Of a stretch of 37,886 bases of DNA, positions 4,720 through 37,811 are shown piece by piece. Source of the DNA: an uncultured Methylococcaceae bacterium. Lineage in GTDB: Bacteria; Pseudomonadota; Gammaproteobacteria; Methylococcales; Methylococcaceae. Position numbers and translations under genes: made by a program. The notes under the pieces were generated by a model that saw only the letters and a list, made by a program, of their open reading frames with translations, ran no database searches and had not been told where the DNA came from. The first letter of the stretch is position 1. Each line of letters opens with the position of its first letter. Where the stretch lies: positions 1 through 37,886 of the forward strand of contig CAIZPP010000294.1 of the NCBI GenBank assembly GCA_903934875.1, in the 5' to 3' direction.

Positions 4720-4756
4720 CATCTAAGCGGATATCCAATAAACAACATCCCATCCA

Positions 4757-4870
4757 AAGGCCAAGCTGGTGCTTGGCGCTCCCAATGGGAACGCCAAGCA
4801 CCAGCTTGGCTCTTAGAACGGCGGTTCTGTGCCAAAATTGGAGGTCTCCACGTTATCGGCGAAGGTATTG
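4757..4870. repeat. Family 2 element, inverted, left end degraded
   Basis: It reads as the reverse complement of the copies at 4006-4125, 5557-5678 and 34276-34397. The right terminus GGCGAAGGTATTG is intact at 4858-4870. The left terminus has decayed. The inner palindrome GCTTGGCG..CGCCAAGC is kept. Confidence 0.75.
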
Positions 4871-4889: not shown

Positions 4890-5017
4890 AGAGTTTGGCG
4901 ACTTGTCGCCGCATGGTTCGAAAGACTGGTCAAGTCGCCGCACTCCACATGAGGCAACCCTTTGCCTCTAGCGGTTGCGGTACCCATGCCTAACATCAAT
5001 TAGGAAAAAACGCTGTA
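4890..5017. repeat. Family 3-related remnant plus family 1 end
   Basis: GGCGACTTG (4897-4905) and CAAGTCGCC (4931-4939) form an inverted repeat followed by GCACTCCAC, as inside the element at 1-140. The end TAACATCAATT at about 4991-5001 is a decayed family 3 terminus. AAAAAACGCTGTA at 5005-5017 is a family 1 end lying 4 bp past the stop of the DUF2887 pseudogene. Confidence 0.5.
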
Positions 5018-5021
5018 TGCC

Positions 5022-5539
5022 TTAATGCCCCCAAATCTCGTCCAGACTGTTGGCATCAAGGACACGCTCACCCCACACTAGCAGGGTTTCGGCATCGGCG
5101 CTTGCAACGCGCTGGCGGGCGGATTCCGGCATGGGGTTGAATTTGCGTTCCAACAGGCGCAACAACATGGCCGCTTCGCCTTCTACACGCCCTTCCACAA
5201 GCCCTTCCCCAAACACATCTTGATAAAATCGGGTTGTCTTTAAATCGACATCATTTAAGCCAAACATCTTTTGAATCTCCTCGCGGGTGAATGTGGGTAG
5301 TTTATAGACCAACACGGTCTCTAGCAATTCCAGCCAGTCGATGCCGTCGGCAGGGTGGCTTTCCCAATGGGCTTGGACTTTCCGCACGATGGGGCTTATG
5401 TTTGCGGCATCGGTGACAATCAGGGCGATTAGCCAAAGCTTTGGGTTGCGCTGTCGAGCAGCGGCAATCGGTCCAGGTAAACCCGGTGCAGATTAGGCAG
5501 GCCAAGAAACGGGAATGTCGCTGGGGAGTGGCGTTCGAT
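5022..5539 (-). pseudogene. DUF2887/Rpn-like transposase-nuclease family protein, truncated and frameshifted
   Basis: The intact C-terminal frame (5022-5387) reads IDWLELLETVLVYKLPTFTR, MFGLNDVDLKTTRFYQDVFG and LLRLLERKF, and ends LDEIWGH. This is the tail of the PD-(D/E)XK Rpn/DUF2887-type family common in cyanobacteria and some proteobacteria. Upstream on the minus strand the same protein continues (FLGLPNLHRVYLDRLPLLDS, then LIALIVTDAANISPIV), but in two frames, with a 1-nt loss near 5450. The N-terminal nuclease part is absent: a stop and then a family 2 element at 5557-5678 replace it. A near-identical fragment lies at 35699-35985 in inverted orientation. It is unlikely to be active. Confidence 0.8.
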
Positions 5540-5556: not shown

Positions 5557-5678
5557 CAATACCTTCGCCAATATCTTGAGAGACCTCCAATTTTGGCACA
5601 GAACCGCCGACATAAGAGCCAAGCTGGTGCTTGGCGTTCCCATTGGGAACCCCAAGCACCAGCTTGGCGAAGGTATTG
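5557..5678. repeat. Family 2 palindromic element with 5-bp target duplication
   Basis: Complete 122-bp copy with termini CAATACCTTCGCC and GGCGAAGGTATTG. AGTTA occurs at 5552-5556 and 5679-5683. It sits where the 5' part of the DUF2887 gene would be expected. Confidence 0.85.
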
Positions 5679-17048: not shown

Positions 17049-17171
17049 TACAGCATTTTCAACATCAATAGAGTTACTTGATAGCTGGAATGAAATGGCA
17101 AGTTATTCGGTTAACTTGAAACTTAGCTTAATATTCTTTACTAGGTGTATTATAAAGATGAAAATGCTGTA
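17049..17171. repeat. Family 1 element, complete
   Basis: A 123-bp element with termini TACAGCATTTTCAACATCAA and GATGAAAATGCTGTA. The TA at each end fits a TA target duplication. Interior and ends match the copies at 28732-28855 and 37690-37811. It bounds the AT-rich restriction-modification island on its right side. Confidence 0.9.
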
Positions 17172-27126: not shown

Positions 27127-28283
27127 TGGAGGGATGGTTATTCCTTCTTCTTCCTGTTGCAGCCGCATCTGGATGGCTTGCCGCCCAAAGGCATTACGCC
27201 CGCAAATATCTCATTGAGCATACTCACTCGCTGAGAAAGGCCTACTGTCGTGGGTTGAATTATTTGCTCAGTGAAAAGACGGATAAGGCCATAGAAGCCT
27301 TCGTCGATTTGCTGACGAATGACTTTGAAACGGTCGAGACTCATATCGCCGTGGGCAATTTGTTTCGGCGCCGTGGCGAAATCGAAAAGGCCATTGAAAT
27401 CCATGAAGCCCTGATTGTCAGGGAAGACCTCAATGCCCAGCAGCAGGAAAGCGCACAATTCGAACTGGGGCTGGACTATATGCGGGCGGGGCTGTTCGAC
27501 CGGGCGGAAAGCATTTTCCAGAATTTGGTCGATCATGAAGATTCCCGCCGGGGGGCGTTCCAACAGTTGCTGGACATCTACCAGCATGAAAAGGAATGGA
27601 GTAAGGCGATGGAATGTACCCGTCAATTGCAGGCAATGGGCAAGCCCCCTAGAAGGGGCGAAACCGTTGCCCAATTCCTTTGCGAATTGGCGGAGGAGAC
27701 CCTCTGCTCCGACTGCGAGAAGGTTTCCCGGCAATGGCTGGAAGAGGCCCTGCGGGAGGATCCCCGTTGCGCTAGGGCTAGTTTGTTGATGGCGAAGTTG
27801 GAAATGCGCGAGGGCCGCTTTGATGAGGCGCTGCAAACGCTTAAACGCGTCGAATCGCAAAAATCCGACGTAATTCCAGAAATCATTGAACCTTTGCGCA
27901 TTTGCCATGATCGCTTGGAGAAACCTGTCGGGGAATTGATAGGCTATCTTGGTTATCTATACGAAACCTACGGATTCGAGTCAGCCGCTTTGGCCTTGGC
28001 CGAGAGTATCCGTTCGGAACAAGGTGCGGGAAAAGCGATAGATCATATGATGCGTGTTTTGGAAAACAATCCTACCCTGAAATCGCTGAATACTTTGACC
28101 GGCTTTCTGTTGGAAGACGGTGCGGAAACACAGCGAGAGGTATTAATTCGCTTGGACCGGGCCTTGGATCGCATGTATTCCTATGTCCCACGCTACCTAT
28201 GTACCCATTGTGGATTCAGCGGAAGCGAATTGCACTGGCGTTGCCCTTCCTGCCGCTACTGGGAGACGACAAAACCTTCATGA
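27126..28283 (+). CDS. lapB: Lipopolysaccharide assembly protein LapB (YciM)
   Basis: A 385-residue inner-membrane-anchored TPR protein. An N-terminal membrane segment (WLFLLLPVAAASGWLAAQRH) is followed by about nine TPR-like repeats (KAIEAFVDLLTNDFETVETH, RAGLFDRAESIFQNLVDHED). A C-terminal rubredoxin-type knuckle with four cysteines, CTHCGFSG...WRCPSCRYW, ends the protein. In E. coli LapB, with FtsH, controls LpxC turnover and hence LPS synthesis. The usual small partner gene lapA between ihfB and lapB is missing here; lapB overlaps the ihfB stop directly. The 3' end overlaps the next gene by 4 bp. Confidence 0.93.
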   Translation: MEGWLFLLLPVAAASGWLAAQRHYARKYLIEHTHSLRKAYCRGLNYLLSEKTDKAIEAFVDLLTNDFETVETHIAVGNLFRRRGEIEKAIEIHEALIVREDLNAQQQESAQFELGLDYMRAGLFDRAESIFQNLVDHEDSRRGAFQQLLDIYQHEKEWSKAMECTRQLQAMGKPPRRGETVAQFLCELAEETLCSDCEKVSRQWLEEALREDPRCARASLLMAKLEMREGRFDEALQTLKRVESQKSDVIPEIIEPLRICHDRLEKPVGELIGYLGYLYETYGFESAALALAESIRSEQGAGKAIDHMMRVLENNPTLKSLNTLTGFLLEDGAETQREVLIRLDRALDRMYSYVPRYLCTHCGFSGSELHWRCPSCRYWETTKPS

Positions 28284-28726
28284 CATATAGCATTAACCCT
28301 TTAATTCAACGGCTTGAAACTTTATTGGCGGATGGATTTTCCGTGGCAGAAGGCAGTTTGGAGGCCAATGTTCGCAGACTCGGCAATGACTTGCCTGACG
28401 ATTTGCGGGATGAGCTGCTAAATCTCGCCCATCGCAGCACAGAGACGGGGGTTGGCGAAACTGACCCGCTTGAATTGGCCTTTCTCTGCGGGCAGGCCTA
28501 CGAGCGGCTGGAAAATTTGCTGCGCAACCGGCTTGCTGCCGATATTGCCTTCCGTGCGCCGGACGGAGTCCTTCCACCGGAATTGGAAGATAAAGATTTA
28601 GCCGCCCTTTCCCGTTTCATCAGACTGCGCGACCATGTGTTGAGGACCGTCGCCGACTACACCCTGAAGTTTTTACTGGTTTCAGCCATTTTGCTGTTCA
28701 TCGGCCTGTCGTTGGGTTTAATTTAA
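28280..28726 (+). CDS. Small protein with C-terminal membrane anchor, unknown
   Basis: A 148-residue protein I do not recognise. I start at ATG 28280 (MTYSINPLIQRLETLLADGF), overlapping the lapB stop (ATGA), rather than at 28199, which would lie inside lapB. Residues about 1-125 are helical and charged. Residues about 131-148 form one hydrophobic helix (FLLVSAILLFIGLSLGLI), so it is likely tail-anchored. Coupling to lapB suggests a role at the same membrane, possibly in LPS or envelope control, but that is only context. Confidence 0.75.
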   Translation: MTYSINPLIQRLETLLADGFSVAEGSLEANVRRLGNDLPDDLRDELLNLAHRSTETGVGETDPLELAFLCGQAYERLENLLRNRLAADIAFRAPDGVLPPELEDKDLAALSRFIRLRDHVLRTVADYTLKFLLVSAILLFIGLSLGLI

Positions 28727-28731
28727 CCTTA

Positions 28732-28855
28732 TACAGCGTTTTCAACATCAAAGAGTTACTTGATAGCTGGAATGAAAGGGCAAGATATTCAGTTAACTTG
28801 AAACGTTAGCTGGATATCCTTTATTTAGGTATATTTTAAAGATGAAAACGCTGTA
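28732..28855. repeat. Family 1 element, complete
   Basis: A 124-bp reference copy with termini TACAGCGTTTTCAACATCAA and GATGAAAACGCTGTA. Its right end lies 2 bp before the ATG of the lipoprotein gene, and its left end 5 bp after the stop of the previous gene, so it fills the intergenic region. Confidence 0.92.
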
Positions 28856-28857
28856 AC

Positions 28858-29184
28858 ATGAGATTGTACGTTGTCACCGTATTGACTCTCTCCGTGTCGC
28901 TGTCTGGCTGTGCGGGGGAGCCTGCGTATCATTGGCCTTTGTCCGATTCCCAGAAAAGGCCCTTGGCATTTCACGACACTAGGCTCCAGTATGCTTTGGT
29001 GATGGGTGACAATGACACCTTGGCCAAGGATTTTGCAATGAAACTTCCGCCGTCAATGGCTGAGCGTGTCGTCGCCGGTGCGGTCCTGCCCTTGACCATA
29101 GCCACTGAAACCGCGTTTTGGCCGATTTTCACCGGCATCAAAGCTTTCGCCCCGAGTCAAGATAAATCTAAAAGCCACGACTGA
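28858..29184 (+). CDS. Small lipoprotein, unknown
   Basis: A 108-residue protein with a lipoprotein signal peptide: MRLYVVTVLTLSVSLSGCAG, lipobox LSGC with the cysteine at 18. The mature part is short, with a mildly hydrophobic stretch at about 72-92 (VVAGAVLPLTIATETAFWPI). No family recognised. The start codon is only 2 bp from the end of a family 1 element, and no Shine-Dalgarno sequence is visible, so both expression signals must lie in the element or be absent. It is convergent with the peroxidase gene downstream. Confidence 0.8.
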   Translation: MRLYVVTVLTLSVSLSGCAGEPAYHWPLSDSQKRPLAFHDTRLQYALVMGDNDTLAKDFAMKLPPSMAERVVAGAVLPLTIATETAFWPIFTGIKAFAPSQDKSKSHD

Positions 29185-29194
29185 CTTACCACAA

Positions 29195-29680
29195 TCACGA
29201 AAGTAAAGCTTGGATATCCCTGCTGATTTTTTCGGGTTTGTCCATCGAGCCAAAGCGCTGGACTGGCTTGCCGTTCCGGTCGATCAAGAATTTGGTGAAG
29301 TTCCATTTGATCGCTTGAGTGCCTAGCGCCCCCGGCAAGGACTTGGTCAGATAGGTAAACAAGGGGTGCGCGCCGGGTCCATTGACCTCCACCTTTTCCG
29401 ATATGGGGAAAGTCACACCGTAATTCAGTTGGCAAAACGCGCCTATCTCATCCGCATTTCCCGGCTCCTGTTTGCCAAACTGGTTGCAAGGGAAACCAAT
29501 CACAACCAGCCCCTTGTCCCCATAAACGCGGTAAAGCTGTTCCAGCCCCGCATATTGTGGAGTAAACCCGCATTGGCTTGCGGTGTTGACAATCAACAGC
29601 ACCTTCCCTTTGAATTGGGCGAAATCCAGTTCATCGCCATTCAGCATTTTGGTTTTGAAAGAATAGATGTCAGCGGTCAT
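29195..29680 (-). CDS. Glutathione peroxidase family protein (cysteine type)
   Basis: A 161-residue thiol peroxidase. The catalytic cysteine C37 is in VNTASQCGFTP (cysteine, not selenocysteine). The second conserved block VIGFPCNQFGKQEPG carries C65 and the glutamine. The tryptophan-asparagine site is in IKWNFTKFLIDRNG. Bacterial members usually take electrons from thioredoxin and reduce hydroperoxides. The length is that of BtuE-type enzymes. The start MTADIYSFKTKMLNG is the family's natural N-terminus and lies 4 bp from a family 1 terminus (CGCTGTA-tatt-ATG) with no Shine-Dalgarno sequence. Confidence 0.93.
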   Translation of the reverse strand: MTADIYSFKTKMLNGDELDFAQFKGKVLLIVNTASQCGFTPQYAGLEQLYRVYGDKGLVVIGFPCNQFGKQEPGNADEIGAFCQLNYGVTFPISEKVEVNGPGAHPLFTYLTKSLPGALGTQAIKWNFTKFLIDRNGKPVQRFGSMDKPEKISRDIQALLS

Positions 29681-29684
29681 AATA

Positions 29685-29938
29685 TACAGCGTTTTTAATA
29701 TCGAAGAGTTACTTGTTGGATTATATCATTTTGCAAAGCAGTTCATACACATGATGAAAATTTCTTTTGAAAACCTAGGGGCATTGGATGTTGGCGAAAT
29801 TGAAGCACCCAGCCAAGTACAGCGTTTTCATGTTTAAAAACTAACTAAAAATGAATATTCAAACAAGCTCTGATTGAAAAAATATCTGGCACAACCATAT
29901 GCCTTATCAAGTAACCAGTTGACGTTGAAAACGCTGTA
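29685..29938. repeat. Composite family 1 element with two outward left arms
   Basis: TACAGCGTTTTTAATATCGA with AGAGTTACTTG at the left is mirrored by CAAGTAACCAGTTGACG with TTGAAAACGCTGTA at the right, both left-arm type. An inner terminus TACAGCGTTTTCA is at 29818. The unit fills the whole gap between the divergent peroxidase and recD genes, so both genes start beside one of its ends. Confidence 0.75.
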
Positions 29939-29939
29939 A

Positions 29940-31811
29940 ATGCTAATTTCCGAAACCCCGCTAGACCGCCAGTTCGCCGCTTGCATGCGCCGCTTTGACC
30001 CCGGCATGGATATCGCTGTGGAATGGGCCGCGAAGCTGGCTTGCCATGCATTGGGCGAGGGCCACGTCTGCCTTGATTTGCGCACTTGGGCCGGTAGCGA
30101 AGTCGGCCCCGGTTTGCGCCTGCCATCTGTTTTGGCATGGAAACAAGCCCTATTCACCAGCGCAGTCGTGGGCCAGCCCGGAGATTTCAAACCCATGATA
30201 GTCGAGGGGGATAGGCTGTACCTCGCACGTTACTGGCAATACGAAAATAACCTGGCGGAAAATCTATTGGCCAAGGCCGTTGCTATCTGTGCTGAGTGTG
30301 ACTTGGAACGCCTTAAGGCCGACTTGGACCGGTTGTTTGCCCATAATGCGGGGCAATGCCCTGATTGGCAAAAAACCGCTGCCGCGATTGCCGTGTTGCG
30401 CAGGCTTTGCGTCATCTCCGGGGGGCCGGGCACTGGCAAAACCTCGACCGTGGTGCGCATCCTCGCCGCCCTGCAATCGCAAGCCGATGGAGGATTGCGC
30501 ATTGCCTTGGCCGCCCCCACTGGCAAAGCCGCAGCCAGAATGCAAGATTCTATCCGGGCACAAAAATATAAGCTGGACCTGCCGGAGGCCATTGTCGGTT
30601 CGATCCCGGAAACTGCCTCCACCTTGCACCGCTTATTGGGTAGCAAGCCGGATTCCCAGTACTTCCGCCATAACCGGGACAACCCGCTGCCAGTGGATGT
30701 CGTCGTCATTGATGAGTCCTCAATGATTGATTTGGCATTGCTGTGCAAGCTGTTGGAGGCGTTGCCGGCTAAGGCCAGGCTGATAATGCTGGGCGACAAG
30801 GACCAACTGGCTGCCGTCGAGGCCGGCGCGGTGTTTGGCGACCTCTGTGCTGGGCAGGGATTTACAGGGCCGTTTCTCAGCTTACTGCAAAAAACCGTGG
30901 GGGCAAAATCTGAAACAAGCGAAGATGCCAGTCTCCCCCCCCTACTCAATGCTGTTGAGTTAACTCCACCCCCCCGCGGGGGGAAGGGCGAAGCGAAGGG
31001 GGCTTTGGGAGCGGGACGAGCTAAATCAGAGGTTTCAGCGCTAGGCGATTGCATTGTTTTGTTGAAGCACAGCCACCGCTTCGGGACGCACAGCGGCATC
31101 GGCGAGTTGGCGCGGCGGGTGAACGAAGCGGAAGACTCATTGCCGGTACGGCAGATATTGTTGGAAGGGGGGTTCACCGATATTGCATGGCGGTCGCAAT
31201 TCGATGAGGCTGACCTGCTGGAAAAGATGGAGATAGGCTATAGGCACTATTTCGACTTGGTGGGCAGCGGGGCAGGGGGAGTGGAAGTGCTGTCGGCGTT
31301 CAATCGTTTCCGTGTGCTCGCAGCCCACCATGAAGGGCCTGCCAGTGCGTCTTCGGCCAACCGCTTATACGAGTCATTTATCCGGCAACGCCTGCGTGTT
31401 CCAAATTACGAGCGCTGGTATCCGGGCAGACCCATTATTGTGACACGCAATGATTATGGCCTTAAGGTGTTTAACGGGGATGTGGGTGTATGCCTGTGGG
31501 CGGAGAGCGAACTGCGCGTCTGTTTCGAGGATGGCGAGGGCGGCTTGCGCAGTATTGCCCCCGCCCGCCTGCCCGAGCATGAACCTGTCTACGCCATGAC
31601 CGTGCACAAGAGCCAAGGTTCGGAGTTCGATGAGGCGCTATTATTACTGCCCGAAACCGCCTCTCCGGTGTTGAACCGCGCATTGGTCTACACTGGCATC
31701 ACCCGCGCCAAAAGCCGCGCTGAAATTTGGGGCGGGCAAGATATACTAGCCGCCGCCGTCAGGAATGCCCCGGAACGCAGTTCAGGTTTGCGGGAAAGGC
31801 TGTGGGCTTAG
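29940..31811 (+). CDS. recD: Exodeoxyribonuclease V subunit alpha (RecD helicase)
   Basis: A 623-residue SF1 5'-3' helicase subunit of RecBCD, for double-strand break repair and degradation of foreign DNA. The N-terminal domain is followed by Walker A SGGPGTGKTSTVVRILAAL (about residue 160), motif VVVIDESSMIDLALLCKLLE, LIMLGDKDQLAAVEAGAVFG, and the C-terminal UvrD-like AMTVHKSQGSEFDEALLLLP. Residues about 318-368 carry an insertion-like stretch (LPPLLNAVELTPPPRGGKGE) encoded by G/C-run palindromic sequence. No recB or recC is in the window. The ATG is 1 bp after a family 1 terminus and lacks a Shine-Dalgarno sequence. Confidence 0.92.
   Translation: MLISETPLDRQFAACMRRFDPGMDIAVEWAAKLACHALGEGHVCLDLRTWAGSEVGPGLRLPSVLAWKQALFTSAVVGQPGDFKPMIVEGDRLYLARYWQYENNLAENLLAKAVAICAECDLERLKADLDRLFAHNAGQCPDWQKTAAAIAVLRRLCVISGGPGTGKTSTVVRILAALQSQADGGLRIALAAPTGKAAARMQDSIRAQKYKLDLPEAIVGSIPETASTLHRLLGSKPDSQYFRHNRDNPLPVDVVVIDESSMIDLALLCKLLEALPAKARLIMLGDKDQLAAVEAGAVFGDLCAGQGFTGPFLSLLQKTVGAKSETSEDASLPPLLNAVELTPPPRGGKGEAKGALGAGRAKSEVSALGDCIVLLKHSHRFGTHSGIGELARRVNEAEDSLPVRQILLEGGFTDIAWRSQFDEADLLEKMEIGYRHYFDLVGSGAGGVEVLSAFNRFRVLAAHHEGPASASSANRLYESFIRQRLRVPNYERWYPGRPIIVTRNDYGLKVFNGDVGVCLWAESELRVCFEDGEGGLRSIAPARLPEHEPVYAMTVHKSQGSEFDEALLLLPETASPVLNRALVYTGITRAKSRAEIWGGQDILAAAVRNAPERSSGLRERLWA
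30935..31022. repeat. Palindromic repeat-like sequence inside recD
   Basis: ACTCAA TGCTG TTGAGT is a hairpin. It is followed by CCACCCCCCCGCGGGGGGAA and GGGCGAAGCGAAGGGGGC, similar to the intergenic GGGGGAGAGCGAAGCGAGGGGG at about 5725-5745. It stays in frame through about 30 codons. Confidence 0.55.
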
Positions 31812-31983
31812 AACTGGTTGATATGTACATATATCTGTAACAATTATCATTAATATCGTTTATTGTTTCTTTTAAAGAAATAGATCGGGCAGGGATTTTT
31901 CATTGCAACCGTGGGTCATACCCGTATATTGATGGCTATTTCCGAAAGACGGAATTTAATTGTTTGTACAGGAGGATAAGTCT

Positions 31984-33000
31984 ATGCTGACTTCTACCCA
32001 TAAAACGCTCTTTTCTATTGTAGTTCCTGCTTGGCAGGGTGTGGATGCCACTGATTTGCGCAGTGTGGCCATACTTCTGGTCTTTTGCTTGTTATTCGCG
32101 CTAGAGGCTCTTGGCGGGTATCGGAAAGATCCAGCCAAAGCGACGCGGCAATCGTATCTAAGCAACCTTGGCACCTTCATCATGAACGACACATTAATGT
32201 CGCTGATGTCAGTGTCGGCACTGTTCGTGGTTGCCGAAAAGTTTGGGCATTGGGGCCTGCTCCATCATGTCCCCGATCCGGGGTTGAAGACAGTACTTTC
32301 ATTTCTGGCGCTGGACCTGAGCTTATATCTCTGGCATCGGCTTAACCACCGCTTTGATTGTCTGTGGATGTTCCATAAAGTGCATCACAGCGACACTACG
32401 ATGAATGTCAGCACGGCTTTCCGCCTGCATTTTGTGGAGGTTGTCCTGACTGCTGCGGTCAAAGCCATTTTCATCGTGGTGATGGGGGTTCCGTCGGCTG
32501 TCGTGCTATTCAACGAAGCGATAATTACGTTGATGATCATGTTCCACCATGCCAATCTCCGCTTCGCCGGTGAGCGCTGGATGGCCAAGCTTTTCATCGT
32601 CCCCAGTTTGCACCGGGTTCACCATTCTGCCTTGCGCAAGGAGCATGACAATAACTATGGGGCCGTGTTTTCCTTCTGGGACCGCTTCTTTGGCAGTTTT
32701 GCCGAAAAAGAACCTGATAAAATTGGGCTTGAATCCATTCCGGGGCTGGGTGTGCTGGAACTGGTAAAGTACGGTTTGAGCAAACATTGGACTCCCAGCC
32801 CGCAGTCGACGGTTAGTGCAAGCCCCCAGATGTTGGAGAAGATGATTGCCGAGGCGGCTTATTACCGGGCAAAAGAACGCGGTTTCGTGCCGGGCAATGA
32901 TTATCTCGACTGGTTGGAGGCAGAAAAGGAAATAAAATCCCGTGTGAGGTGGGATAAGAAAAAAAGATCACTCCATTCATTTTTTCTGATTGGTTGCTGA
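31984..33000 (+). CDS. Sterol desaturase / fatty acid hydroxylase superfamily protein
   Basis: A 338-residue integral membrane di-iron enzyme. Hydrophobic helices lie at about 25-45, 60-80 and 97-115. The histidine motifs are all present: HRLNH (H118-H122), FHKVHH (H131, H134, H135), HH at 188-189 and HRVHH (H210, H213, H214). The family hydroxylates or desaturates lipids such as sterols or fatty acids; the substrate cannot be told. I start at ATG 31984, because AGGAGG lies 8 nt upstream; an upstream TTG frame is less likely. The 3' end overlaps the convergent cinA gene by 24 bp. Confidence 0.88.
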   Translation: MLTSTHKTLFSIVVPAWQGVDATDLRSVAILLVFCLLFALEALGGYRKDPAKATRQSYLSNLGTFIMNDTLMSLMSVSALFVVAEKFGHWGLLHHVPDPGLKTVLSFLALDLSLYLWHRLNHRFDCLWMFHKVHHSDTTMNVSTAFRLHFVEVVLTAAVKAIFIVVMGVPSAVVLFNEAIITLMIMFHHANLRFAGERWMAKLFIVPSLHRVHHSALRKEHDNNYGAVFSFWDRFFGSFAEKEPDKIGLESIPGLGVLELVKYGLSKHWTPSPQSTVSASPQMLEKMIAEAAYYRAKERGFVPGNDYLDWLEAEKEIKSRVRWDKKKRSLHSFFLIGC

Positions 33001-34146
33001 TAACGCCCTCTTCAAGGTGTCCAATGCCACGTTAGCCGACCATTCAAGCACCAAGGCGGGGTGGCCGCCAAAGCCACGCCGCCATTGTTGCCTTATATCG
33101 GCGTTCCATAGCCCCACCCCCAGTTGGATTTCTCCGCCGCTTTCCTCAACCACACAGGCCAGGCCCCAATCCGCCTGGGCTTGGGCGGCAGTTAGTCGGG
33201 CCAGTTCCACCAAATCGGTTGATTCTGCTTGGGTGGTGATTTTACCCACCACGAACCCGGCCTTGCCCTGTTCCGACAGGGAGAGTTTGCAAGCCAAACG
33301 CCCGCCCGTGCCGCTTTCCACCACGGTCAGGGTTTCTCCCCGCAGGCTCAACTCGGCCAGTACAGAGCCTTCCAAGGTTTCCCCGTCGGATCCGAAAACT
33401 AGATTCCCTAACCGTTCCCGTACGCTAGCCTCGATTGGGGCGATCAGGCCATCCGCTTCGTCCTCGTTGGAGGCAGTTGCGGTGATGCGGATGACGACTA
33501 TGCCCGAATGGGCATTCAGCCCCACCGTCGGGTTTTCCAGCCTCTCCAAATCGCCGACTTGCGCATCCACCTGGCTTTCGCCCACACCTGATACCTTCAG
33601 TGCGCGGCTTTTGATGATGCCGGTTAATTTGAAGCGTTGCCGCAGGAACGGCAGCACGGAATGATCCATCAAATAGTCCATTTCGCGGGGTACCCCCGGC
33701 AGGCTGATGACCACCCGTCCGTCTTGTTCGACAATAAAGCAAGGTGCCGTGCCGACCGGGTTTTCGATGGCAAGCGAGCCTTCCGGGCGGAAAGCCTGTT
33801 GCCGGTTGTTGTCGGTCATCGTCCGGCCCCAGCGCTTAAACCGCTGTTCTATCTGCGCCAGTAAGCCATCGTCGAATACCAGTGGCTTTCCAACCGCCTG
33901 CGCGACGGCCTCGCGGGTCAAGTCATCCACCGTCGGACCCACGCCCCCGGTGGTGATGACCACATCCGAGCGGGCCAACCCCTGCCGGATCGCCGCCACC
34001 ATCCGCTCCAAATTGTCGCCCACGGTGGAGGTGTAAAACAGCGGCATGCCGATGGTTTGTAATTTTTTGGCGATGGCACCTGAGTTGGTGTCTACAATCT
34101 CGCCGAGCAGAATCTCGCTGCCTATGGTGATGATTTCAGCGTGCAT
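32977..34146 (-). CDS. cinA: CinA-like protein (competence/damage-inducible; PncC-type C-terminus)
   Basis: A 389-residue protein. The N-terminal MoaB/Mog-like domain begins MHAEIITIGSEILLGEIVDT and includes VVITTGGVGPTVDDLTREAV and VISLPGVPREMDYL. The C-terminal domain (about 245-385) resembles the NMN amidohydrolase PncC, but the usual ESCTGG reads ESGTGG and the region is diverged, so amidase activity is doubtful. The family functions in NAD repair and salvage. The start codon shares its A with the last base of a family 1 terminus (CGCTGT-ATG), with no Shine-Dalgarno sequence. The natural N-terminus is exactly at this ATG. Confidence 0.9.
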   Translation of the reverse strand: MHAEIITIGSEILLGEIVDTNSGAIAKKLQTIGMPLFYTSTVGDNLERMVAAIRQGLARSDVVITTGGVGPTVDDLTREAVAQAVGKPLVFDDGLLAQIEQRFKRWGRTMTDNNRQQAFRPEGSLAIENPVGTAPCFIVEQDGRVVISLPGVPREMDYLMDHSVLPFLRQRFKLTGIIKSRALKVSGVGESQVDAQVGDLERLENPTVGLNAHSGIVVIRITATASNEDEADGLIAPIEASVRERLGNLVFGSDGETLEGSVLAELSLRGETLTVVESGTGGRLACKLSLSEQGKAGFVVGKITTQAESTDLVELARLTAAQAQADWGLACVVEESGGEIQLGVGLWNADIRQQWRRGFGGHPALVLEWSANVALDTLKRALSATNQKK

Positions 34147-34265
34147 ACAGCGTTTTTAACATCAAGTTGTTCAATTGGGTTTATGGTGAAGCAAAAAATA
34201 TAAATCAATGGTTTATTTGAATGTTTGTCATTCTATATAAAGCGTTCTAAAAATGAAAACGCTGT
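34146..34265. repeat. Family 1 element, diverged centre
   Basis: A 120-bp element. The termini TACAGCGTTTTTAACATCAA and AATGAAAACGCTGT are kept, while the centre is AT-rich and differs from the reference copies. Its left end overlaps the cinA start codon by one base. Confidence 0.8.
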
Positions 34266-34275
34266 CAATCTGAAA

Positions 34276-34397
34276 CAATACCTTCGCCAATATCGTGAGA
34301 GACCTCAAATTTTGGCACAGAACCGCCGATCTAAGGGCCAAGCTGGTGCTTGGCGTTCCCAGTGGGAGCGCGAAGCACCAGCTTGGTGAAGCTATTG
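34276..34397. repeat. Family 2 palindromic element
   Basis: A 122-bp element. The left terminus CAATACCTTCGCCAA is intact; the right terminus has mutated to GGTGAAGCTATTG. Flanks TCTGAAA and TCTGAGA look like a slightly decayed target duplication. The inner palindrome GCTTGGCGTTCCC is present. Confidence 0.8.
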
Positions 34398-34486
34398 TCT
34401 GAGAAAATTCAGATTGCTGGAATTCTACCCTATAATGCTGGCTGATTGCCCGTTTTTACAGTGCTAAAATTGATAGGATATACCCA

Positions 34487-34756
34487 ATGCCAGCGATCAG
34501 CATGTTTTATGGCCTTATCATACGAATGCTTTTCATGGATACCAAGCTGCACAACCTACCACATATCCACGTCGAATACCAAGGGCAAAATGCGGTGTTC
34601 GCCATTCCTGGCGGCGAGTTGCTAGAAGGCACACTGCCGACAAAAAAAGTGCGGCAAGTGCAAGTCTGGATTGACCTACATGAGGAGGAACAGATGGCGG
34701 ACTGGTCACTGGCCATCAATGGCGAACCGGTTTTCACAATTGACCCACTCCGTTAA
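34487..34756 (+). CDS. DUF4160 family protein
   Basis: An 89-residue protein. MPAISMFYGLIIRMLFMDTK and HNLPHIHVEYQGQNAVFAIP are the DUF4160 signatures (MPxIxxFyGiiIxMyxxDH...HxPHiHvxYg). The family is usually paired with a DUF2442 gene, as here, and such pairs are suspected toxin-antitoxin-like modules without a proven mechanism. DH of the usual motif reads DT here. The DUF2442 partner at 34766 is truncated. Confidence 0.8.
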   Translation: MPAISMFYGLIIRMLFMDTKLHNLPHIHVEYQGQNAVFAIPGGELLEGTLPTKKVRQVQVWIDLHEEEQMADWSLAINGEPVFTIDPLR

Positions 34757-34765
34757 GAGGATGCC

Positions 34766-34870
34766 ATGCTGCCAGCTGTCACATCTGCACTAGCCTTACC
34801 GAATTATCGCCTGTTATTGACTTTTGATAATGGTGAACGCAAATGTTTTGATATGTCACCTTCCATTTGA
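34766..34870 (+). pseudogene. DUF2442 protein, truncated
   Basis: A 34-codon frame, MLPAVTSALALPNYRLLLTF then DNGERKCFDMSPSI, ending in TGA. This is the N-terminal part of DUF2442, which normally runs to about 80-90 residues. It lies 9 bp after the DUF4160 stop. The remainder is lost; a rearranged family 1 element begins at 34892, just past the break, so insertion or deletion there likely removed the 3' half. Confidence 0.7.
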
Positions 34871-34891
34871 ACATTATCCAGCACCACCCAG

Positions 34892-34988
34892 TAGCTATCA
34901 AGTAACTCTTTGATGTTGAAAACGCTGTAACTTGAAACGTTAGCTGAATATCCTACATTAGGTATATTTTAAAAATGAAAACGCTGCA
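34892..34988. repeat. Family 1 element with inverted left half
   Basis: 34892-34929 is the left arm in reverse orientation (TAGCTATCAAGTAACTCTTT ending AACGCTGTA). 34930-34988 is the right arm in normal orientation (ACTTGAAACGTTAGCTG to AAAACGCTGCA). In complete copies the arms face each other, so the left half has flipped. The end lies 1 bp before the methyltransferase ATG. Confidence 0.85.
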
Positions 34989-34989
34989 A

Positions 34990-35664
34990 ATGGAACCTCA
35001 TCAATTTTGGCACGAACAATGGCAACTTGGGCAAATCGGTTTCCATCAAGCCCAGGTCCACCCGTGGTTAAACCAATTTTGGCCGCTGCTTGGCGAAGGG
35101 GCAGGGCAGGTATTCGTCCCCCTGTGCGGCAAGAGCCTGGATATGGCATGGCTGCGACGGCAGGGGCATTCAATCCTAGGCATTGAACTCAGCCCTATTG
35201 CCGTCACCGAGTTTTTCCAGGAACTGAAGCTGGCACCCTCCATCCATTCGGCGGACGGGTTCGACTGGTATGAAAGCAATGGGTTTCAATTGTTGTGCGG
35301 CGATTTTTTCGACCTCCAGCCCCGGCATCTGGACAAGATCGCAGCGGTGTACGACCGGGCCGCCTTAGTCGCCCTGCCGCCGGACTTGCAAGCGCGTTAT
35401 GCCCAACACCTGTTGCACTTGCTGTCCCAGCGCCCGCCCATGCTGATCATCACATTCGAGTATGACGCGGCGGAAATGCAAGGCCCGCCGTTCCCGGTCA
35501 GCGAAGCGCGGATACACGAATTGTTTGGGGTTGCCTATGCAATCGAGAAACTCTCGGCAACCGACGCACTAGCCAGCCAGCCGGGGCTAAAAGCGCAGGG
35601 TTTGAGTGGCTTGCTTGAGAAAGCTTATTATCTACAGCGTTTACAACATCTAAAAATTACTTGA
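34990..35664 (+). CDS. tpm: Thiopurine S-methyltransferase family protein
   Basis: A 224-residue SAM-dependent methyltransferase of the TPMT family. MEPHQFWHEQWQLGQIGFHQ is the family N-terminus. VFVPLCGKSLDMAWLRRQGH is motif I, followed by GIELSPIAVTEFF and VYDRAALVALPPDLQARYAQ. In bacteria it methylates thiols and tellurite or selenite species. I start at 34990 rather than 34975: the earlier ATG lies in the family 1 terminus, and the family begins at MEPHQFW. The last residues (LQRLQHLKIT) and the stop come from another family 1 left end at 35633, so the C-terminus is bounded by elements on both sides. Confidence 0.9.
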   Translation: MEPHQFWHEQWQLGQIGFHQAQVHPWLNQFWPLLGEGAGQVFVPLCGKSLDMAWLRRQGHSILGIELSPIAVTEFFQELKLAPSIHSADGFDWYESNGFQLLCGDFFDLQPRHLDKIAAVYDRAALVALPPDLQARYAQHLLHLLSQRPPMLIITFEYDAAEMQGPPFPVSEARIHELFGVAYAIEKLSATDALASQPGLKAQGLSGLLEKAYYLQRLQHLKIT

Positions 35665-35697
35665 TATCCAGTCGATGGTGCAGGATATACGCTGAAA
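35633..35697. repeat. Family 1 left end overlapping the tpm 3' end
   Basis: TACAGCGTTTACAACATC then AAAAATTACTTGATATCCAG matches the left arm. It carries the stop of tpm and ends next to the broken 5' edge of the second DUF2887 fragment. Confidence 0.7.
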
Positions 35698-35698
35698 T

Positions 35699-35985
35699 AG
35701 AAGAAACTACCCACATTCACCCGCGAGGAGATGCAAAAGATGTTTGGCTTAAATGATGTTGATTTAAAGACCACCCGATTTTATCAAGATGTGTTCGGAG
35801 AAGGGCGCTTGGAAGGGCGTGTAGAAGGCGAAGCGGCCATGTTGTTGCGCCTGTTGGAGCGCAAATTCCACCCCCTGCCGGAGTCCGCCCGCCAGCGCGT
35901 TGCCAGCGCCGATGCCGAAACCCTGCTAGTGTGGGGTGAGCGCGTCCTTGATGCCAAAAGTCTGGACGAGGTTTGGGTGCATTGA
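35699..35985 (+). pseudogene. DUF2887/Rpn-like C-terminal fragment, second copy
   Basis: From the TAG edge the frame reads KKLPTFTREEMQK, then MFGLNDVDLKTTRFYQDVFG and LLRLLERKF, ending LDEVWVH. It is nearly identical to the tail of the 5022-5539 pseudogene but in the opposite orientation 30 kb away. There is no N-terminal nuclease region; a family 1 element abuts the break. ATG 35731 could in principle start an 84-residue peptide, but it is more likely a dead fragment. Confidence 0.75.
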
Positions 35986-36111
35986 TGCATTGTGTTGTAG
36001 CCAATGCGGCATTCAAATTCGGATGTAAATAAAGCCCATACGCGCCGATTTAAGGACAATGAAAACCAGCCAAATTTTTTTAACCGAATGTCATGCCCAT
36101 TATGTACGCTA

Positions 36112-36142
36112 TTAAGTAACGTGTGATGTTGAAAATGCTGTA
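36112..36142. repeat. Family 1 right-end remnant
   Basis: AAGTAACGTGTGATGTTG followed by AAAATGCTGTA, the same sub-type as 4384-4412. Confidence 0.65.
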
Positions 36143-36167
36143 ACCTAATCAAGGTAAACCTTATGCG

Positions 36168-36318
36168 AAGTGCGGCGGGGTTTGCAACCCCGTCGCTAAC
36201 GTTTTGTGCAAGGCCACGGCATCCGGCGTGGCACAAAACGTTTCGGACGGGATGACATATCCCGTTCGGCTTTAGCTCATAGGGCGCAACAGCGGCTTAG
36301 GCCGCGTATTGCGCACTT
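36168..36318. repeat. Multi-hairpin structured element
   Basis: Closing pair AAGTG (36168-36172) with CACTT (36314-36318). Inside are four arms: 36172-36182 with 36186-36196; 36198-36208 with 36232-36242, with an inner CCACG/CGTGG; ACGGGA (36247-36252) with TCCCGT (36260-36265); and GCGCAA (36284-36289) with TTGCGC (36309-36314), with an inner GCGGC/GCCGC. Some closing bases are shared between alternatives. It may be a palindromic repeat cluster or a structured RNA. Confidence 0.65.
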
Positions 36319-37689: not shown

Positions 37690-37811
37690 TACAGCATTTT
37701 CAACATCAAAGAGTTACTTGGTAGTGGGTATGATAGCGCAGGTTATTCGGTTAACCTGAAGGGTTAACGGAATGTCTGTTACAGGTATATTTTTAAGATG
37801 AAAATGCTGTA
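37690..37811. repeat. Family 1 element, complete
   Basis: A 122-bp element with termini TACAGCATTTTCAACATCAA and GATGAAAATGCTGTA. The interior matches 17049-17171 and 28732-28855. The last 75 bp of the window are AT-rich with no gene seen. Confidence 0.9.

Follow-up and report, generated by a model that had tools for sequence, protein, structure and literature searches.

A MITE-like repeat family abuts the start and the stop codons of genes in a Methylumidiphilus genome

The described repeats closest to the element treated here are the enterobacterial repetitive intergenic consensus (ERIC) or repeat unit (RU) elements of enterobacteria and the Correia elements of Neisseria, i.e. the Correia repeat enclosed elements (CREE) or Neisseria miniature insertion sequences (NEMIS). 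ERIC/RU elements target TA. They are described as about 127 bp long, intergenic and similar to miniature inverted-repeat transposable elements (MITEs) (PMC2759123); according to a review, Correia elements lie predominantly immediately upstream of genes and have been reported to carry promoters (PMC10969869), and a gonococcal CREE has been described in which the final A is the A of an ATG (Snyder et al. 2009, PMC2649163). Here we describe a MITE-like repeat, family 1, in a stretch of 37,886 nt from an uncultured Methylococcaceae bacterium (assembly GCA_903934875.1, contig CAIZPP010000294.1, positions 1 to 37,886; hereafter the window) and in the genome to which it belongs, where copies stand directly against the start codons and, as strongly, against the stop codons of genes. 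A preliminary description of the window, which had noticed five of the start junctions, held that Correia-type elements are not known to abut start codons in this way; the gonococcal case is a precedent.

Family 1 is a TA-ended repeat of about 122 bp with TACAGCGTTTT and AAAACGCTGTA ends and without its own transposase. In the source genome (G000; 5.41 Mb in 344 contigs, the window being one of them) AAAACGCTGTA occurs 885 times and the reversed pattern 4 times; across the genus the counts are 885, 439, 126 and 102, followed by 8, 6 and 3, the last three being close to the control level. The relatives G001, G002, G003 and G006 were used for comparison, while G030 and G049 were also searched for termini and hold elements that share the terminus and have different interiors. 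Judged by sequence identity in the two stretches compared, G006 is Candidatus Methylumidiphilus alinenensis AMbin10, and G000 would therefore be another Methylumidiphilus species. Facing termini no more than 800 bp apart have their spacing peak at 119-125 bp, and an alignment of 65 copies, selected for facing termini 118-126 bp apart, contains clear subfamilies. The ends are asymmetric, the L end reading outward ...GATGTTGAAAACGCTGTA and the R end ...AAGATGAAAACGCTGTA. A profile search of 61 stretches of G000 (898 kb) gave 197 matches, 117 of them near full length. There is also a long form of 454-455 bp (L017:4009-4462; L016:5612-6066), in which two copies of ~122 bp, with R ends inward and L ends outward, enclose a centre of ~210 bp that starts CATAA. 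Family 1 is thus MITE-like, i.e. short, of high copy number, bounded by terminal inverted repeats and, at both ~122 bp and 454-455 bp, too short to encode a transposase; it is a new member of this kind, unusual for its copy number and its closeness to both gene ends. No published description of it was found in the literature searched, the main Methylumidiphilus paper (PMC8397446) gave no relevant match to repeat terms where these were looked up, and a search of window positions 28600-36300 against Rfam gave no family match at E 0.1. The last 20-21 nt of the L end also occur as direct tandem copies, resembling footprints or nested ends (L014:985-1026, L011:12122-12163), and there are four L-end tandem pairs 21 nt apart.

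With the Correia elements, as described in the sources cited, family 1 shares the character of a short, high-copy MITE found upstream of genes and the overlap of its last A with an ATG (PMC10969869, PMC2649163). It differs in copy number, with 885 exact termini compared to more than 120 gonococcal copies given in the review (PMC10969869), in having a composite long form of inverted pairs, and in that, in contrast to the outward promoters of Correia elements, it offers only a motif. Its ends, TACAGCGTTTT, are other than the terminal repeat of Correia elements, and its host is Methylumidiphilus, not Neisseria. To the ERIC/RU elements, as these are described, it can be likened in size, MITE-like nature, intergenic position and putative TA target.

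The copies in the window and the genes next to them are as follows (Pfam was searched for the window genes and one transposase).

17049-17171, plus strand: another full copy; the next gene begins 75 nt after it
28732-28855, plus strand: full family 1 element, its R end separated by 2 nt from the lipoprotein ATG and its L end lying 5 nt past the stop of the upstream gene at 28199-28726
28858-29184, plus strand: gene of a small lipoprotein, its lipobox recognised by eye; G006 and G002 have homologues
29195-29680, minus strand: glutathione peroxidase gene gpx (PF00255)
29685-29756, minus strand: half element comprising the L side (profile positions 1-72), with 4 nt between its L end and the gpx ATG; holds TGATATAAT 44 nt inside its terminus
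29754-29817, no strand: 64 nt separating the two elements in the gpx-recD gap; without another match in the genome at E 0.01
29818-29938, minus strand: full element (L to R on the minus strand), L end 1 nt before the recD ATG
29940-31811, plus strand: recD (PF21185, PF13245)
32977-34146, minus strand: cinA (PF00994, PF18146)
34146-34266, plus strand: full, degenerate element (L to R on the plus strand), whose L end shares its terminal A with the ATG of cinA on the minus strand
34893-34929, minus strand: L-end fragment (outward on the plus strand), joined to the R half that follows
34930-34988, plus strand: R half of an element, ending in the variant CGCTGCA and leaving 1 nt to the tpm ATG at 34990; an ATG inside it (34975) shares the reading frame of tpm
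34990-35664, plus strand: tpm (PF05724)
35633-35664, plus strand: L end of another copy, which the tpm frame enters and in which it stops (last residues LQRLQHLKIT)
37690-37811, plus strand: further copy, its R end continuing into the long-form centre, near the contig end

Writing d for the number of nucleotides between the terminal TA and the codon, with d = -1 where the terminal A is shared with the ATG, we find the five start junctions as the preliminary description gave them, i.e. d = 2 for the lipoprotein gene (28855/28858), 4 for gpx (29685/29680, minus strand), 1 for recD (29938/29940), -1 for cinA (34146) and 1 for tpm (34988/34990, CGCTGCA). It had also regarded the ATGs of gpx, cinA and tpm as the natural starts, and for gpx and cinA this is borne out: two of three gpx orthologues and four of five cinA orthologues align from the same codon (the others aligning from residue 5 or leaving the N-terminus uncovered). 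The alignment of tpm with a G006 homologue starts at residue 1. The suspicion that this goes beyond chance also proved right. Among the 289 unique termini of the 61 stretches, 28 lie at d = -1 to 8 from an outward start, where about 4 would be expected if all intergenic TA sites were open to them, and in nine cases the A of the ATG is shared. Stretches L001-L020 were picked around listed copies; the systematic stretches L021-L060 (541 kb), i.e. with the window and the hand-picked stretches excluded, give 14 of 145 termini against about 2 expected, and G006 gives 7 of 84 against about 1. Both kinds of end abut starts (22 of 170 L ends, 6 of 62 R ends), some of the copies consisting of the L half only (gpx, thrC), and the abutted genes include thrC, panC, hemL, cinA and an rnfD-like gene, of which all but cinA were named by recognition from their N-termini. 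Genes were called with a home-made gene finder that mis-calls some starts; five cases at d = -17, seemingly starts born from the element (MLKTL...), are probably artefacts of it, and L018 has a signal-peptide-like start after the terminus.

The junctions at start codons make up only one side, the 5' one, of a pattern that concerns both edges of genes. After removal of the composite R ends (57 of the 289), the 232 remaining termini include 28 at the 5' edge (d -1 to 8; ~3.4 expected) and 23 at the 3' edge (0 to 8 nt after the stop; ~2.4 expected), with 18 further genes, a number without a null of its own, ending inside an element. Since the null of all intergenic TA sites was judged too generous, a conditional one was drawn from random TA sites of the same emptied gap in G000 and G006, taking gaps that hold a single unit not reaching into a gene (from 110 units, 77 of them alone in their gap). 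Under this null 17 of 62 start sides abut against 9.1 expected, and 15 of 58 stop sides against 5.5; a position weight matrix (PWM) of the target site alters this little, and an earlier run with 46 elements had given 11 against 6.2 at the 5' edge and 16 against 3.8 at the 3' edge. With all usable units, overlaps included, abutment is seen on 28 of 105 start sides and on 38 of 115 stop sides. A second repeat family, with the palindrome GCCAAGCTGGTGCTTGGCG and 16 merged copies in the sample (window 4744-4826, 5602-5668 and 34321-34386), served as control and comes to within 8 nt of a gene on 1 of its 27 sides, although this family is small and its ends are vague. The ATG as such is no sequence target either, being found at 0.0197 per position near the 158 termini away from called starts and at 0.0220 farther off. 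With stops abutted as strongly and ATG not enriched at these other termini, the earlier view that start codons are singled out is not supported; the abutment is mostly how such repeats settle at gene edges, not a dedicated start-codon device.

Nor does the missing Shine-Dalgarno (SD) sequence, taken in the preliminary description as the sign of a special leader, set these starts apart. An SD core at -18 to -4 is present in 97 of 340 element-free ATG genes in G000 (29 %; control window 8 %) and in 106 of 340 ATG genes in G006, i.e. about 70 % of the ATG genes here are without one. Likewise, 22 orthologues of thrC, panC, cinA, hemL and gpx align from the same start codon and 21 of them have no SD core, the exception being cinA of G006. 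Abutted starts from which the element has been removed in silico show a core in 1 of 21 cases in G000 (at least 5 of these 21 flanks being other repeat DNA) and 0 of 3 in G006, as would be expected if insertions that part an SD from its ATG are removed. That the SD is kept beyond the element as a rule was rejected (1 of 21).

For the origin of the junctions we compared the spacers of 14 element gaps, and part of 15 more (1856 of 2547 query residues), with those of the relatives; most were without adjacent orthologues, and eight gaps were comparable, i.e. recO-pdxJ, nnrD-tsaE, the divergent pair of L051, gpx-recD, rnfC-rnfD, htpX, ubiG-like and rdgB. Two more with adjacent orthologues, sufS-cysE and the L027 pair, were excluded for their long gaps in G006. 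The best candidate for an empty site, reconstructed and not an observed allele, is recO-pdxJ: TA stands at both ends of the element, which would lie in a TA at the recO stop, and taking it out together with one TA restores that stop, the joined flanks reading ...KYST and TAA, three residues short of the end in G001 and G003 (...KYSVLPK). No element-free allele of the same site was seen. At nnrD-tsaE the relatives' genes overlap or touch, so that no native DNA is missing in G000, and three gaps, their lengths worked out by hand from coordinates, are not shorter than those of the relatives (htpX 81 versus 77-135 nt, ubiG-like 272 versus 75-134, rdgB 434 versus 124-130); the G006 region across the rdgB start matches a degenerate copy (E 2.7e-6). 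At two loci the relatives' spacer is absent here. The divergent pair of L051 is separated by 91 bp in G006, 429 in G001 and, besides the element, 8 nt here, and between rnfC and rnfD ten codons plus 65 nt present in G001 and G003 are gone, leaving 6 nt. The gpx-recD gap, which is 83 bp in G002 and here holds two copies and ~66 nt of non-element DNA, was dropped as a case of lost native spacer, the similarity of the 61 nt between the copies to the G002 gap being matched by 457 of 500 shuffles.

In G000 (L003:5952-6074) and in G006 (L184:1402-1525), rnfC has an element at the same position near its 3' end, and both elements give it an element-encoded C-terminus. The two are 69 % identical and belong to different subfamilies, so that common descent of the insertion is not established; the position is either a hot spot or that of one old insertion that was converted afterwards. 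In recO (L009:1363-1386) and tpm (window 35633-35664), too, an element supplies a new C-terminus and the stop codon.

Overall, we consider it probable (at roughly 0.64) that the pattern reflects TA insertions of the MITE-like family 1 that survive at coding edges. The non-autonomous element would insert at TA and would have spread in several Methylumidiphilus species, most of all in G000, its insertions persisting where least is broken, i.e. at the edges of coding sequences, either in or just after a stop codon or at a TA overlapping or just before a start codon, the start-side survivors being chiefly at genes that do not use SD. At a minority of loci the native spacer on the gene side would also have been lost, joining the element to the ATG; once placed, the element would become a transcribed leader and at some loci probably a promoter too, one subfamily having an extended -10-like motif at a constant place. 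Several observations weigh against this reading. Simple insertion is not the whole story, since two of the eight comparable gaps clearly lost native DNA, and even the emptied recO-pdxJ spacer has 23 nt versus 39 in G001 and G003, with no exact match. In G006 alone the conditional start excess is weak (3 of 18 versus 2.2 expected), and at L047 an SD is stranded 122 bp upstream of the abutted ATG. The stop-abutting ends (22 of 39 L versus 7 of 41 R) show an imbalance that a symmetric survival model does not predict and that deletion derivatives of the long form could explain. Finally, occupancy per TA site is higher at gene edges than at distant intergenic sites, where pure survival would make it at most equal unless the greater part of the 'intergenic' DNA has a function or contains genes that were not called, and since the gene finder calls only 75 % as coding, part of the edge excess may be an artefact.

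This last excess, at edges of both kinds, is what would be expected if the transposition machinery instead had a preference for TA sites where transcribed genes begin and end, owing to the structure, supercoiling or opening of the DNA, and the rnfC position, hit by different subfamilies in two genomes, could be such a hot spot; yet the termini away from called starts show no preference for ATG, the flank PWM does not account for the excess and the rnfC pair may be one converted insertion, making such targeting possible but rather doubtful. A similar standing, that of a somewhat unlikely account, is given to a ratchet by which the DNA between element and gene is lost stepwise, by deletions next to the element or by recombination of one copy with another, until the coding sequence is reached and halts the process. 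The L051 pair and rnfC-rnfD, with no native spacer and termini at most 6 nt from the ATG, speak for it, as does gpx-recD with its 66 nt of non-element DNA against 83 bp in G002, while four of the eight comparable gaps (nnrD-tsaE, htpX, ubiG-like, rdgB) are not shorter with the element discounted, although length alone is no proof that native DNA was kept. It is also conceivable, if unlikely, that the terminus functions as a translation start region without an SD, one subfamily adding an outward promoter, and that it was kept at starts for driving the gene. Of the 170 L ends, 36 carry the extended -10-like motif (TGATATAAT/C), compared with 12 of 170 in shuffles, and it almost always lies 43-45 nt inside the terminus; none of the 62 R ends has it. 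Its share in abutting L ends (8 of 22) compared with other L ends (28 of 148) is suggestive only. That some abutting copies are reduced to the L half and that thrC, panC and hemL are among the abutted genes would fit such a role, whereas stops are abutted as strongly as starts, R ends abut starts without the motif, 14 of the 22 abutting L ends have none and genes without SD are ordinary here.

The suggestion of the preliminary description that the element end works as a leader nevertheless fits at least one divergent pair. Barely anything except the element lies between the two ATGs of L051, and transcription of both genes must thus start inside the element or beyond the opposite start; there, and at rnfC-rnfD, the element must presumably form the leader, and leader or promoter use appears plausible at some loci. 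In RNA folds of eight sequences, an end stem of at least 10 bp (mostly 12-13) has its closing pair exactly at the termini in seven and one base further inward in the eighth, with z from -7.0 to -1.9 for the whole element. It is tempting to speculate that the element is a portable coding-sequence boundary, whose end stem could loop it out of the mRNA, keep the spacing between upstream signals and ATG and form a hairpin directly after stops, and which could take the place of native leaders at about 140 starts, as estimated by scaling up the 14 found in 541 kb; if true, the host would gain mobile SD-less leaders and terminal hairpins. We regard this as very improbable, and the stem is not needed everywhere, since in 8 of the 28 abutting cases, of which one lies at a contig edge, the pattern used did not find an opposite end belonging to the copy.

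The putative TA target and the CAG termini of family 1 suggest an enzyme of the IS630/Tc1-mariner kind. No IS630 copy with family 1 ends was found, nor an autonomous parent with the same ends among 25 open reading frames (ORFs) in 29 facing pairs (first 60 residues, by eye); G000 holds two transposase remnants without such ends, and none of the ten PF13358 loci examined in the genus has a flanking TACAGC pair, one holding a MITE and three a lone end. A candidate parent in G030 (L213:1500-2841; 1342 bp with a 384-aa DDE_3 transposase and seemingly the same ends) was rejected because it has CTCCCTTCTC ends of its own (by eye), being an IS630 nested at a TA inside a 106-bp MITE with TACAGCGTTTT ends, and because three loci with 97-99 % identical pieces (two other copies) are without TACAGC ends. 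Integron cassettes were set aside, the copies lying in both orientations.

Some further features of the window may be recorded. The stretch at 29754-29817 reads like the start of an ATPase-type ORF (MKISFENLGALDVGEIE). Within recD, an in-frame low-complexity C-run/G-run (30935-31050) looks like another repeat inserted in coding sequence. A 287-nt inverted repeat, 93 % complementary, has its arms at 5017-5303 and 35704-35990, the second overlapping a DUF4351 fragment.

Family 1 corrects the reading of start codons as singled out and provides a large natural set, in which one defined sequence adjoins the start or stop codons of numerous genes, core genes among them, in a mostly SD-less bacterium. 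The needs of translation initiation just upstream of the AUG, and the tolerance of the genome to insertion, thereby become directly testable.

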